This document shows, piece after piece, positions 1 through 2,381 of a stretch of DNA of 22,712 nucleotides. The position numbers and the translations under genes are program-made. Source of the stretch: a virus. A model generated the notes under the pieces. It did not search any database, was not told the DNA's origin, and was given only the letters and a program-made list of their open reading frames with translations. The stretch lies in IMG/VR virus record IMGVR_UViG_3300033148_002419, positions 1 through 22,712 of that record. One strand, 5' to 3'. How positions within the stretch are numbered: the first letter of the stretch is position 1; each line of letters starts with the position of its first letter.

Positions 1-148
1 CCTTCTGAAGAGTCACCCCAAGAGAGCCCACACATTTCACACAAATCGGTCCCCTCAACTTCCCCGCTGCATCAAACCAGCTTCCAGTGCATTCAGAGTT
101 CTCAACTTCACCACTCGTACTTTCTCTTCCACATACCGAACAGCGCAT
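1..148 (-). CDS. Small CxxC/CxxC zinc-ribbon-like protein, partial at left edge
   Basis: A minus-strand reading frame starts at ATG (148-146) and is still open at base 1, giving 49 codons. The N-terminus reads MRCSVCGRE, with Cys at residues 3, 6, 20, 36 and 39. The pairs C3-x2-C6 and C36-x2-C39 look like the two knuckles of a zinc ribbon. A good ribosome binding site (GAAAGGA, 8 nt before the ATG) supports this start. The same frame stays open upstream to about 358, and an in-frame ATG lies at 283-281, but that ATG has no Shine-Dalgarno sequence, so a longer form is less likely. The gene is transcribed away from the structural genes, probably from the promoter at 335-362, and so likely belongs to the early module. 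Function is unknown; zinc binding is inferred from Cys spacing only. Confidence 0.6.
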   Translation of the reverse strand, partial: MRCSVCGRESTSGEVENSECTGSWFDAAGKLRGPICVKCVGSLGVTLQK

Positions 149-334
149 AATCAAAATCCTTTCATGCACGTTCAGTGAATTACACCCTTTGAACATTGCG
201 GTTATACACCCGCTGTGCTTTGTCCCGGCATGCTCATACACTGAGCGAAGAACAAAGAAGATTGTCAAAGATCTTGGGAACATTCGCGTTTCGTCACAAT
301 GACTCGAAGAGGCCGCCACCTTCAACGTAACCAA

Positions 335-362
335 AGTATACCCAACTCTGCCCGGTTGTCAA
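335..362 (-). promoter_or_regulatory. Leftward sigma70-type promoter
   Basis: On the minus strand, TTGACA (362-357, perfect -35) is followed after 16 bases by TATACT (340-335, five of six consensus -10 bases). Transcription would start near 328 and run left into the Cys-rich gene starting at 148, leaving a leader of about 180 nt. The match is good enough for recognition by host RNA polymerase without an activator, as expected for an early phage promoter. It is predicted from sequence only. Confidence 0.6.
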
Positions 363-412
363 ATCCACACCTTTCCCTGGTCCACCCACCAGCTAGAGGA
401 GAAGAATACCCT

Positions 413-441
413 AGGGGGTACCAGCCCCAACCCCACCCCCT
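413..441. repeat. GC-rich inverted repeat, possible hairpin
   Basis: AGGGGGT (413-419) and ACCCCCT (435-441) can form a 7-bp stem around a C-rich 15-nt loop. The palindromes CCCTAGGG and GGTACC lie alongside. No T-run follows on either strand, so it does not look like an intrinsic terminator. Role unknown. Confidence 0.3.
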
Positions 442-701
442 GAGAAAGATAGATGGCCTCCTTCTTTACTAAACTAGATTTTCAAAACGAGATAGCTGGG
501 AAGGCGCCAAATGGTCCTGCGCCCAAAGAAGCTGAGTGGGAGGAAGATTAATTCTCCACCACATTACCATGTTTATAGTAGGATGAAGGAAGTATCTCTC
601 CCTCTTCCTAATGCTATCACCATTACAGAGATTGGGAGGAAGGGAGGAAGGTTTCTTCTCCACTACAATCACCCTTCCAGGGAAGAGGATCAATTTCTAA
701 T

Positions 702-824
702 GTTTCTGGAAGGATGATAAAAAGGATTACTAGTTTCTGGAGAAAGAACCTTCATCCCACCCTTTCAGCTTAAATTCGGCGGAGAGTTCCTTTCTCATAA
801 GAAAATTCATCGCTATCCAGAAAC
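702..824. promoter_or_regulatory. Three GTTTCTGGA repeats upstream of the late promoter (candidate operators)
   Basis: The 9-mer GTTTCTGGA occurs at 702-710 (+), 733-741 (+) and 816-824 (- strand). The middle copy is part of a palindrome, TTTCT-GG-AGAAA (734-745), and a related TTTCT-CATA-AGAAA lies at 791-804. The third copy ends 3 bases before the -35 box at 828, centred near -43 relative to the expected start, a usual site for an activator that contacts RNA polymerase. That these are binding sites for a phage late regulator is inference from position and repetition. Confidence 0.45.
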
Positions 825-827
825 TCC

Positions 828-856
828 TTGACTGCTGATAGCTCCTATGCGATTAT
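828..856 (+). promoter_or_regulatory. Rightward promoter with extended -10, head of the structural block
   Basis: TTGACT (828-833, five of six -35 bases) is separated by 17 bases from GATTAT (851-856, four of six -10 bases). The spacer ends in TGC, giving the TGn extended -10 element. The expected start is near 863, leaving a leader of roughly 38 nt before the ATG at 901. It is the only good promoter noticed in front of the rightward genes, and the GTTTCTGGA repeats adjoin it. Confidence 0.55.
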
Positions 857-900
857 ACACTATAACACATCAATTACTAAGGACCTGAGAGGACTGAAAA

Positions 901-1062
901 ATGTCTGGCGGAAACTGTAATATCTGCTCAAACCTACAAAGAGATAGAAAGACCCGAATCCTTTCCTGCTCTTTGCACGCACAGATTAATACCAGTAACC
1001 CCGCTAGAATCAGACCAGAAACCTCTTGCCCAAAGGGAGACTACAGTGCTTCACGAAGTTGA
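901..1062 (+). CDS. Small Cys-rich (CxxC...CxxH) phage protein, first gene of the rightward block
   Basis: This 53-aa frame begins with ATG 7 nt after GAGAGGA (887-893) and ends with TGA at 1060-1062. Residues 6, 9, 23 and 26 form C-x2-C-x13-C-x2-H, a plausible zinc site, followed by a basic stretch ending NPARIRPETSCPKG with a further Cys at 43. Its 3' end overlaps the next gene by 17 nt and contains that gene's ribosome binding site, so the two are probably translationally coupled. The strong binding site, the Cys/His spacing and the promoter just upstream argue that it is real despite its size. No function is known to me; small zinc proteins at this position could act in regulation or packaging. 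Confidence 0.65.
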   Translation: MSGGNCNICSNLQRDRKTRILSCSLHAQINTSNPARIRPETSCPKGDYSASRS

Positions 1063-1501
1063 CGATGTTGCACTCACATCAGACGATAGGGAACTCAATC
1101 TTTCAGTCGACCCTATCATTGAACTTGCTGAGCAAGGCTACTCCACAAAAGAAATAGCCGCAATTGTCAATGATGCACCTGAGACTATCCGCAAGCAGAT
1201 AAAGGAAATTCAATCTAAACAAGGCGTTCTCCTGGACTACCGATCGGTCCAAGGACTCCAACTCACAGATATTCAACGCAAACTTCTCGCTGCAATGACT
1301 GATGAAAAAATAGCCGAAGCTCCATTAAAGGACTTGGTTAACTGCTTTAAGACTCTCAAAGACAAAGAACTCGTCATGGATGGTAAACCTACTGAAATCC
1401 AAGGACTCGTAGGTTACCTAGTCCAACTTGAAAGAGAAGAACGTGGTGAGATAGACGTCACCCCACTTCCTGAACCTGAAGAGGAGTTACCAGACTTATG
1501 A
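1046..1501 (+). CDS. HTH DNA-binding protein, probable terminase small subunit
   Basis: A 151-aa protein starting at GTG with AAAGGGAGA 6 nt upstream. Residues 22-56 form a helix-turn-helix (GYSTKEIAAIVNDAPETIRK), the recognition module typical of small terminase subunits. Residues 70-130 are predicted helical, a possible oligomerisation region, and the tail from 131 is acidic and proline-rich. Small terminase subunits bind the packaging site on phage DNA and load the ATPase-nuclease large subunit. The large subunit gene is present at 6471, unusually about 5 kb downstream. Alternatively it could be a transcription regulator of the late block. The HTH is clear; the terminase assignment is inferred from domain order and context. 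Confidence 0.6.
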   Translation: MLHEVDDVALTSDDRELNLSVDPIIELAEQGYSTKEIAAIVNDAPETIRKQIKEIQSKQGVLLDYRSVQGLQLTDIQRKLLAAMTDEKIAEAPLKDLVNCFKTLKDKELVMDGKPTEIQGLVGYLVQLEREERGEIDVTPLPEPEEELPDL

Positions 1502-1857
1502 GTCTATCCAACGAACAGCACGAGTTCGCTAAAGATGTCTCCAGTCTTCTCCACTTCATCCACCTTCTTGGCATCAAACATACCCTTGGGGAAGTCTTCA
1601 GGACCCCTGAACAGCAAGCCATTTATTTTGCTGCCGGAAAGAGTTGGAAAAAATTCTCAGGTCATCAAAACAAACTTGCTATCGATATCAACTTCTTTCC
1701 TAATGGTAAATACATAGGCACATTCTCACCAGAAACTGGTAAAGCTCTTCTTACTGATATAGGAGGATATTGGTGTAGTCTCCATCCAAAGAACCGCTGG
1801 GGAGGAAACTACTCTTTAAAATATCTTGACTTGCCACACTTTGAAAGATTGAGGTAA
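1498..1857 (+). CDS. M15-family (VanY-like) peptidase, endolysin
   Basis: A 119-aa protein whose start codon overlaps the stop of the preceding gene (ATGA); GAGGAG lies at 1481-1486. It carries the zinc site of M15 peptidases: SGHQNKLAIDI, with His56 and Asp63 seven residues apart, and DLPHFE, with His114. Upstream is the usual RTPEQQAIYFAAGKS segment (35-49), and a WGGNY stretch (101-105) precedes the last motif. Single-domain M15 enzymes of this size are known phage endolysins that cut peptide cross-links in peptidoglycan (L-alanyl-D-glutamate or D-Ala peptidases). There is no signal peptide or cell-wall-binding domain, which fits a globular endolysin needing a holin. It heads a likely lysis group with the next two genes. 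Confidence 0.88.
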   Translation: MSLSNEQHEFAKDVSSLLHFIHLLGIKHTLGEVFRTPEQQAIYFAAGKSWKKFSGHQNKLAIDINFFPNGKYIGTFSPETGKALLTDIGGYWCSLHPKNRWGGNYSLKYLDLPHFERLR

Positions 1858-1860
1858 CTT

Positions 1861-2250
1861 ATGCAAATAAATAACTACCTCAACCTTTATCAGTTCAATA
1901 AATCAATGCTGATTGCACCAACGAGATATATTCTCGCTACCACTGAAGTCAGGGATGCTGCAACAAACGGCTGCGGAACTGCAGGTTGGAAGGGAAAACT
2001 CGTCCCTGATACACTTTACTTCCTCAGCATCCTCGAAGCCTGTCGTATTCATGACTGGATGTATGCTGAAGGAGAAACTGAGATTGACAAAAAGAGAGCT
2101 GATGATATTTTCCTAAGCAACATGGAAGAATTAATATCTAACGCTTTCTGGTTTCTACGTTTCCTCAGACGACGTCGCGCTCTGAAATACTTCCTCGCAG
2201 TTGCTATCGCAGGAGACGCCGCTTTTTGGGCTGATAAGGAGAAACCATAA
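1861..2250 (+). CDS. Phospholipase A2-like protein
   Basis: A 129-aa protein with GAGGT 5 nt before ATG. Its centre carries the hallmarks of the PLA2 fold: a glycine- and Cys-containing segment NGCGTAGWKG (36-45), possibly the calcium loop, then ACRIHDWMY (60-68) with the His64-Asp65 catalytic pair, and Asp81/Asp82 on the following helix (KKRADDIFLSNM). In PLA2 enzymes this His, with a distal Asp, activates water to cleave the sn-2 ester of phospholipids. The C-terminus (about 95-124) is basic then hydrophobic (RFLRRRRALKYFLAVAIAG), which could associate with membrane. Its place between an endolysin and a tiny one-helix peptide suggests a role in lysis; a virion role in entry, as in parvovirus VP1, is the alternative. 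Enzyme activity is inferred, not shown. Confidence 0.65.
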   Translation: MQINNYLNLYQFNKSMLIAPTRYILATTEVRDAATNGCGTAGWKGKLVPDTLYFLSILEACRIHDWMYAEGETEIDKKRADDIFLSNMEELISNAFWFLRFLRRRRALKYFLAVAIAGDAAFWADKEKP

Positions 2251-2381
2251 TGTGGAAAGCAATTTGCCTTAAAAAGATTACCTCTGCGACTGTAGCAACA
2301 GTGAAATTCCTTTGGCCGATTATCAAGCCTATTCTCACTGAAGTTGCTAAGCAGAAGTTAGAGAAAAAGTTACTTAAATAA
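2250..2381 (+). CDS. 43-aa single-helix peptide, holin- or spanin-like candidate
   Basis: ATG at 2250 shares its A with the previous stop (TAATG) and has a strong AAGGAGA 7 nt upstream (2236-2242). The 43-residue product has a basic N-terminus, one hydrophobic stretch (TSATVATVKFLWPIIKPIL, 11-29) and a charged, Lys-rich helical tail. One short membrane helix with a basic tail occurs in small holins and pore-forming lysis peptides, and the gene follows the endolysin directly. The hydrophobic segment contains a Lys and two Pro, so insertion in the membrane is uncertain. Gene existence is well supported by the binding site; function is a guess from context. Confidence 0.6.
   Translation: MWKAICLKKITSATVATVKFLWPIIKPILTEVAKQKLEKKLLK

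Follow-up and report, generated by a model that had tools for sequence, protein, structure and literature searches.

A phage phospholipase A2 of the group XIV/DUF1353 fold, encoded beside the endolysin and probably used at lysis

The DNA analyzed here (the window) is a 22,712-nt fragment of a virus genome, positions 1-22,712 of IMG/VR virus record IMGVR_UViG_3300033148_002419, in which family scans recognize genes for a terminase, a portal and a major head protein. Beside its M15 endolysin gene it encodes a 129-residue protein whose membership of the phospholipase A2 (PLA2) family, with the group XIV fold, is well supported. We consider it probable that this is a small cytosolic PLA2 of the group XIV/DUF1353 fold that is produced along with the endolysin and acts at lysis, possibly as a substitute for spanins. 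An earlier note on this DNA had recognized a PLA2 catalytic layout in an open reading frame lying between an M15 endolysin and a 43-residue ORF. Both observations hold: the NGCG, ACRIHDWMY (with His64-Asp65) and Asp81-Asp82 elements all read as described, and the neighbors are confirmed by family scan and ORF reading (Table 1).

The PLA2 gene starts with an ATG preceded by a GAGG ribosome-binding site; Met16 was considered as an alternative start and rejected, since nothing comparable to the GAGG lies before it. Relative to the sister contig L001, the gene shows synonymous changes in 4 of 83 sites and non-synonymous changes in 2 of 304, and because of this pattern the ORF is regarded as a real gene and not a chance reading frame. 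The endolysin gene and the upstream gene for a helix-turn-helix (HTH)-like protein each differ from the sister contig by seven synonymous and no non-synonymous changes, and for the PLA2 gene and the endolysin the comparison points to purifying selection. The leftmost 1 kb or so of the window (1-1045) holds no convincing gene on either strand; the remainder is densely coding. The PLA2 protein has Cys38 and Cys61 as its only cysteines, and hydropathy analysis finds in it neither a signal peptide nor any other hydrophobic signal segment. The absence of a transmembrane helix and of a lipobox sets it apart from spanins, and the absence of predicted transmembrane helices likewise from holins.

Table 1 The PLA2 gene of the window, its functional motifs and the genes beside it
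Feature	Positions	Strand	Basis or remarks
151-residue HTH-like protein; stop overlaps the endolysin start, same gene run	1046-1501	+	Weak HTH matches
M15 peptidase endolysin, 119 residues, 3 nt upstream of the PLA2 gene	1498-1857	+	PF13539 E=1.6e-6; PHROG endolysin E=5e-10
PLA2-family gene; NGCG loop (residues 36-39), His64-Asp65, Asp81 and C-terminal Y110..AV...G118 helix conserved	1861-2250	+	Sequence, profile, alignment, fold
NGCG codons, candidate calcium-binding loop	1966-1977	+	Gly37 and Gly39 invariant in 24 relatives
ACRIHDWMY codons (residues 60-68), active-site helix	2038-2064	+	His64, Asp65, Trp66 and Tyr68 invariant; aligned to HD..Y of 1FAZ/4AUP
Asp81 codon, predicted dyad partner	2101-2103	+	Conserved except for Asn in L027; aligned with the DUF1353 Asp
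43-residue cationic amphipathic ORF; overlaps the stop of the PLA2 gene by one base (TAATG)	2250-2381	+	Sequence

The proposed PLA2 identity passes sequence-profile, fold and family tests. When a profile of ten family members is searched against all PDB sequences, group XIV PLA2s rank first (1FAZ/1LWB, 7.9e-7; 7YGK, 6.6e-5; 4AUP, 2.3e-4; 8K1W, 4e-4), and they are found again with a 24-member alignment; the homology is seen only with profiles, a PDB search with the single window sequence returning chance matches only. The comparison with PLA2 folds that the earlier note had called for agrees with this, as the confident PDB matches of the AlphaFold2 model (pLDDT 82, pTM 0.80) are all group XIV PLA2s. 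Foldseek retrieves 4AUP (E=7e-4) together with 1FAZ, 7YGK and 8K1W, all at probability 1.00, and every one of the five matches above probability 0.21 belongs to the same group. In a viral fold library, a Vibrio phage PLA2 is the best match (3e-7), followed by another phage 'Phospholipase A2' and then by weaker matches to densovirus VP1 PLA2 domains. The assignment to PLA2 thus stands with its class refined, the closest kin being group XIV/DUF1353 PLA2s, not the classical secreted PLA2s.

The residues Gly37, Gly39, Pro49, His64, Asp65, Trp66, Tyr68, Asn87, Arg103 and Gly118 are invariant in 24 related phage proteins, and Asp81 is conserved in at least 90% of the 24-member alignment, from which the pairing of His and Asp is assigned. 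The catalytic Asp pair of the original proposal is present, and the role of catalytic partner is given more narrowly to Asp81, its conserved member. The residues just after NGCG (about 40-50) are modeled at low confidence (pLDDT about 52), NGCG itself being conserved, and the alignment contains no conserved Asp in the stretch just before Pro49, where the calcium ligands of group XIV are expected. The group XIV secretion signal and two disulphides are likewise absent from the window protein. One family member (L027:5854-6312), located directly 3' of a T4-type lysozyme gene, carries Asn at the Asp81 position and is possibly inactive or using another residue.

The window protein also passes the gathering cut-off of DUF1353 (PF07087), at 24.9 bits against 22.5 and over residues 58-92 only; the match spans profile positions 45-78 of 91, the N-terminal half differs, and a full-length DUF1353 domain is therefore not present. 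Most relatives score under the cut-off. A profile-profile comparison of the phage PLA2 family with canonical DUF1353 yields E=3e-6 and places Asp81 on the DUF1353 Asp. DUF1353 comprises more than 6,000 database sequences and includes TtaP of the typhoid islet, a demonstrated PLA2 with an H70/D85 dyad, the activity of which requires the Asp that is the counterpart of Asp81; when TtaP is made in the cytosol, the envelope is not overtly disrupted (PMC11525133). The typhoid islet encodes TtaP together with TtsA, a muramidase homologous to those of bacteriophages, and its outer-membrane step is unexplained. A canonical DUF1353 gene in a prophage (L074) adjoins an M15_3 peptidase gene; in a Mu-like prophage (L076, minus strand, 1381-2016), DUF1353 shares a frame with a dksA/traR-like zinc-finger segment, and a lipoprotein gene is adjacent.

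Scans of viral contigs yielded about 25 PLA2-family loci. Among 50,697 isolate phage records, two carry the gene (Vibrio phage 1.097.O and a Thiohalocapsa phage), as do four contigs from bacterial genomes, and a search for phage-type PLA2 in a sample of 395 genomes from the Geobacteraceae phylum found a single true match besides two that are RHS-associated. The Vibrio phage protein gp09 (MG592470), annotated as 'phospholipase A2 domain protein', is 31-41% identical to family members. Two other labels were set aside as unreliable because the matched stretch is the HD helix: 'tail assembly chaperone', which is the best PHROG match (phrog_1158), and 'DNA binding protein', the name that GenBank gives to the Thiohalocapsa homologue. 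L030 was rejected as a member, being an unrelated long protein in which IHDWGY occurs by chance. An intact stand-alone copy, 46% identical, is found in Vibrio sp. THAF191d (L040, 4968-5387); it lies on a replicon of 1.85 Mb and has no obvious phage neighbors. Profile matches beside RHS/YD-repeat coding sequence in two bacterial genomes (L036 and L037, E about 4e-9 and 9e-9), one of which holds a stop codon, may represent C-terminal, PLA2-like domains of polymorphic proteins. A Victivallaceae genome (G012) matches at four places, one with an internal TGA. The contig JAHFDG010000032.1 (L032), binned as Candidatus Methanoperedens, carries a PLA2 gene and a GH108 peptidoglycan hydrolase; because of the latter, Methanoperedens was rejected as the host, and the contig is probably that of a bacterial phage placed in an archaeal bin by mistake.

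Gene neighborhoods were compared across 28 independent loci, leaving out three that had been found through an endolysin query; the counts derive from neighbor family scans, and their assignment to loci from reading the sequences. The PLA2 gene directly adjoins a Pfam/PHROG-recognized endolysin in nine of these loci, and the endolysins represent four unrelated families: M15_4 in the window, GH108 in L005, L007, L015, L031, L033 and L016 (in the last on the other side of the PLA2 gene), Amidase_3 in L025 and T4-type lysozyme in L027. Since the families are unrelated, the pairing is hard to explain as one inherited cassette; the binomial probability of 9/28 is ~1e-6 if 4% of phage genes lie next to the endolysin by background and ~1e-3 at 10%, an estimate only, as the background is assumed. 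The endolysin lies one small gene away in L018 (M15_3) and L032 (GH108). The gap between the PLA2 gene and an upstream endolysin is mostly -4 nt, an overlap that suggests translational coupling of the two. A holin or small transmembrane gene lies directly beside the PLA2 gene in L018, L029, L032 and L033, and a LydA-type holin is among its direct upstream neighbors. The recurring adjacency to endolysins of unrelated families supports the earlier assignment to a lysis group, and the PLA2 likely acts at the lysis stage. Against this, the gene is located near terminase, portal or nuclease genes in L003, L006, L009, L012 and L020.

In L014, L017 and L028 the PLA2 gene adjoins an unannotated, lysozyme-fold-like family of 190 residues, and in L013 one gene lies between. 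This family is found in 28 loci (L041-L068, e.g., L042:2968-3540) at the endolysin position of Mu-like phages; four members scanned gave no Pfam match, and N-E and S-G-x-S-F motifs are invariant. Its model (pLDDT 94) resembles the folds of GH46 chitosanase, pesticin and T4 lysozyme, with no match reaching E<0.001, and it is probably a new endolysin family.

On the other side of the PLA2 gene of the window, the 43-residue ORF encodes an amphipathic peptide with a net charge of +8 and no transmembrane segment predicted by hydropathy, a possible membrane-active partner of the PLA2. Hydropathy analysis predicts no transmembrane holin adjoining the PLA2 gene in the window; a 94-residue transmembrane, holin-like gene is located far downstream in the sister contig. 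Neither the window nor the 31-kb sister contig contains a lipoprotein gene or other spanin candidate, the window being a fragment, so that a spanin may lie elsewhere.

Lacking both a signal peptide and a transmembrane helix, the PLA2 would at first stay in the cytosol, like many endolysins. A holin or membrane-active peptide would open the inner membrane, and endolysin and PLA2 would enter the periplasm together. Calcium is scarce in the cytoplasm and available in the periplasm, and the His64/Asp81 dyad, probably with calcium, would there cleave the sn-2 ester bonds of phospholipids in the inner membrane and in the outer membrane's inner leaflet. Lysophospholipids and free fatty acids released in this way would rupture the last barrier. 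We infer that the wall would be cut first, that calcium would serve as the switch and that the outer membrane would be the main target. In lambda and Mu, this outer-membrane rupture step is carried out by spanins.

The Mu-like loci allow a positional comparison. In Mu, endolysin gene 22 is followed by the spanin genes 23/23.1 and then by 24 and 25. The order is endolysin, PLA2 and zf-dksA_traR in L014, endolysin, small transmembrane gene, PLA2 and zinc finger in L018, and endolysin, PLA2, small lipoprotein and zinc finger in L015 and L017; the PLA2 gene thus sits about where Mu keeps its spanin genes. A lipoprotein gene directly beside the PLA2 gene occurs in about 10/28 loci (a quarter to a third). 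The PLA2-adjacent lipoproteins are of several unrelated kinds (L004, L008, L009, L012, L015, L017 and L034, also L063 and L064) and could be spanins, or else partners or inhibitors. Whether PLA2 and lipoproteins exclude each other was examined in loci that surround one common endolysin family, and the idea was rejected: there is no clean exclusion, since L063 and L064 of the control set each carry two lipoproteins plus the PLA2.

These possible o-spanins, which are direct neighbors of the PLA2 gene in roughly one locus out of three, would fit an enzyme that chiefly damages the inner membrane, as or with a holin, and leaves the outer membrane to spanins encoded elsewhere, and so would the lack of a predicted transmembrane holin next to the PLA2 gene of the window; for phage WO, moreover, a lysis cassette made up of a patatin-type PLA2 and a holin-like partner has been proposed (PMC9203015). 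We regard this as unlikely, however, as an adjacent holin or small transmembrane gene in four loci (L018, L029, L032 and L033) would make a second such agent redundant, and cytosolic TtaP did not overtly disrupt the envelope (PMC11525133). That the PLA2 is a virion-associated entry enzyme, opening a membrane at genome delivery like the parvovirus VP1 PLA2 domain, appears quite improbable. In its favor, the fold weakly resembles densovirus VP1 PLA2, and the gene lies among tail-region genes in L008, L029 and L034 and between terminase and head adaptor in L012; nevertheless, no fusion to a structural domain occurs in any locus read, and direct adjacency and start-stop overlap with endolysins recur, and a LydA-type holin is one of the direct upstream neighbors. 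Highly improbable, in our judgement, is a lipid remodeler for host takeover or superinfection exclusion, i.e., a moron merely housed in the late lysis region: the patchy distribution (~25 viral contigs, the two isolate phages, the stand-alone Vibrio copy) and the varying location in some phages agree with it, but the recurring unrelated endolysin neighbors are unlike random placement (binomial 1e-6 at the assumed 4% background). Least credible is a catalytically altered PLA2-fold protein (an acyltransferase, lipid binder or dead enzyme), for which the missing partner Asp of L027 and the missing Asp before Pro49 could speak, whereas the His-Asp and the partner Asp are otherwise conserved and TtaP, a DUF1353 homologue, has PLA2 activity that depends on its Asp.

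Phages of Gram-negative bacteria have to break the outer membrane, and an enzyme that cleaves lipids and accompanies unrelated endolysins would offer a further way of doing so. A lysis role for the window PLA2, as favored here, suggests that some phages digest membrane lipid in addition to the cell wall when they break bacteria open; a full-text literature search, covering few subscription journals, returned no report of a PLA2 of the group XIV/DUF1353 fold in phage lysis. If true, this role would explain DUF1353 in terms of function, and likewise the PLA2 of unclear role in the typhoid islet. The muramidase-PLA2 pairing found in phages suggests, without proving it, that the TtsA-TtaP pair descended from a phage lysis cassette. 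More tentatively, and with the balance of our judgement somewhat against it, a calcium-gated PLA2 freed with the endolysin might rupture the outer membrane from inside and replace spanins in phages of diderm bacteria, TtsA-TtaP then being a domesticated phage lysis pair. Such a pair, if real, would explain how the type 10 secretion system of the typhoid islet, which has no spanins (PMC13284979), opens the outer membrane.

As agents of outer-membrane disruption in Gram-negative phages, PMC9239132 recognizes spanins and disruptins. The PLA2 resembles the spanins Rz/Rz1 and Mu gp23/gp23.1 and the disruptins in that its gene adjoins that of the endolysin and in its proposed outer-membrane step, but spanins are membrane-anchored proteins and disruptins peptides, whereas the PLA2 is a soluble enzyme. 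The patatin-type PLA2 cassette of Wolbachia phage WO, proposed as lysis genes (PMC9203015), likewise puts forward a phospholipase for phage lysis; its patatin fold is unrelated, however, and it is proposed to act without a canonical endolysin. Compared with the group XIV secreted PLA2s of fungi and bacteria (SvPLA2, 1FAZ/1LWB; Tuber borchii TbSP1, 4AUP), the profile and fold match from Pro49 to Gly118, and the dyad positions and the C-terminal Y..AV..G helix are the same, but the window protein is viral and cytosolic, lacks the signal peptide, propeptide and disulphide pattern, and differs in the calcium-loop region. Vibrio phage 1.097.O gp09 is a full-length homologue and the best viral fold match; its gene, in contrast, is found between those for terminase and head adaptor, with a lipoprotein gene adjacent. 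With TtaP, the window protein shares a DUF1353 match over the cut-off, HD..Y and a distal Asp, a length of about 125 residues, the absence of a signal peptide and of the group XIV secretion signal and two disulphides, and linkage to a phage-type muramidase gene (TtsA in the case of TtaP). The profile match is confined to the HD helix and the one that follows it, an NGCG loop takes the place of the TDFASxPR segment of DUF1353, and the setting of TtaP is a toxin islet, whereas that of the window protein is phage lysis.
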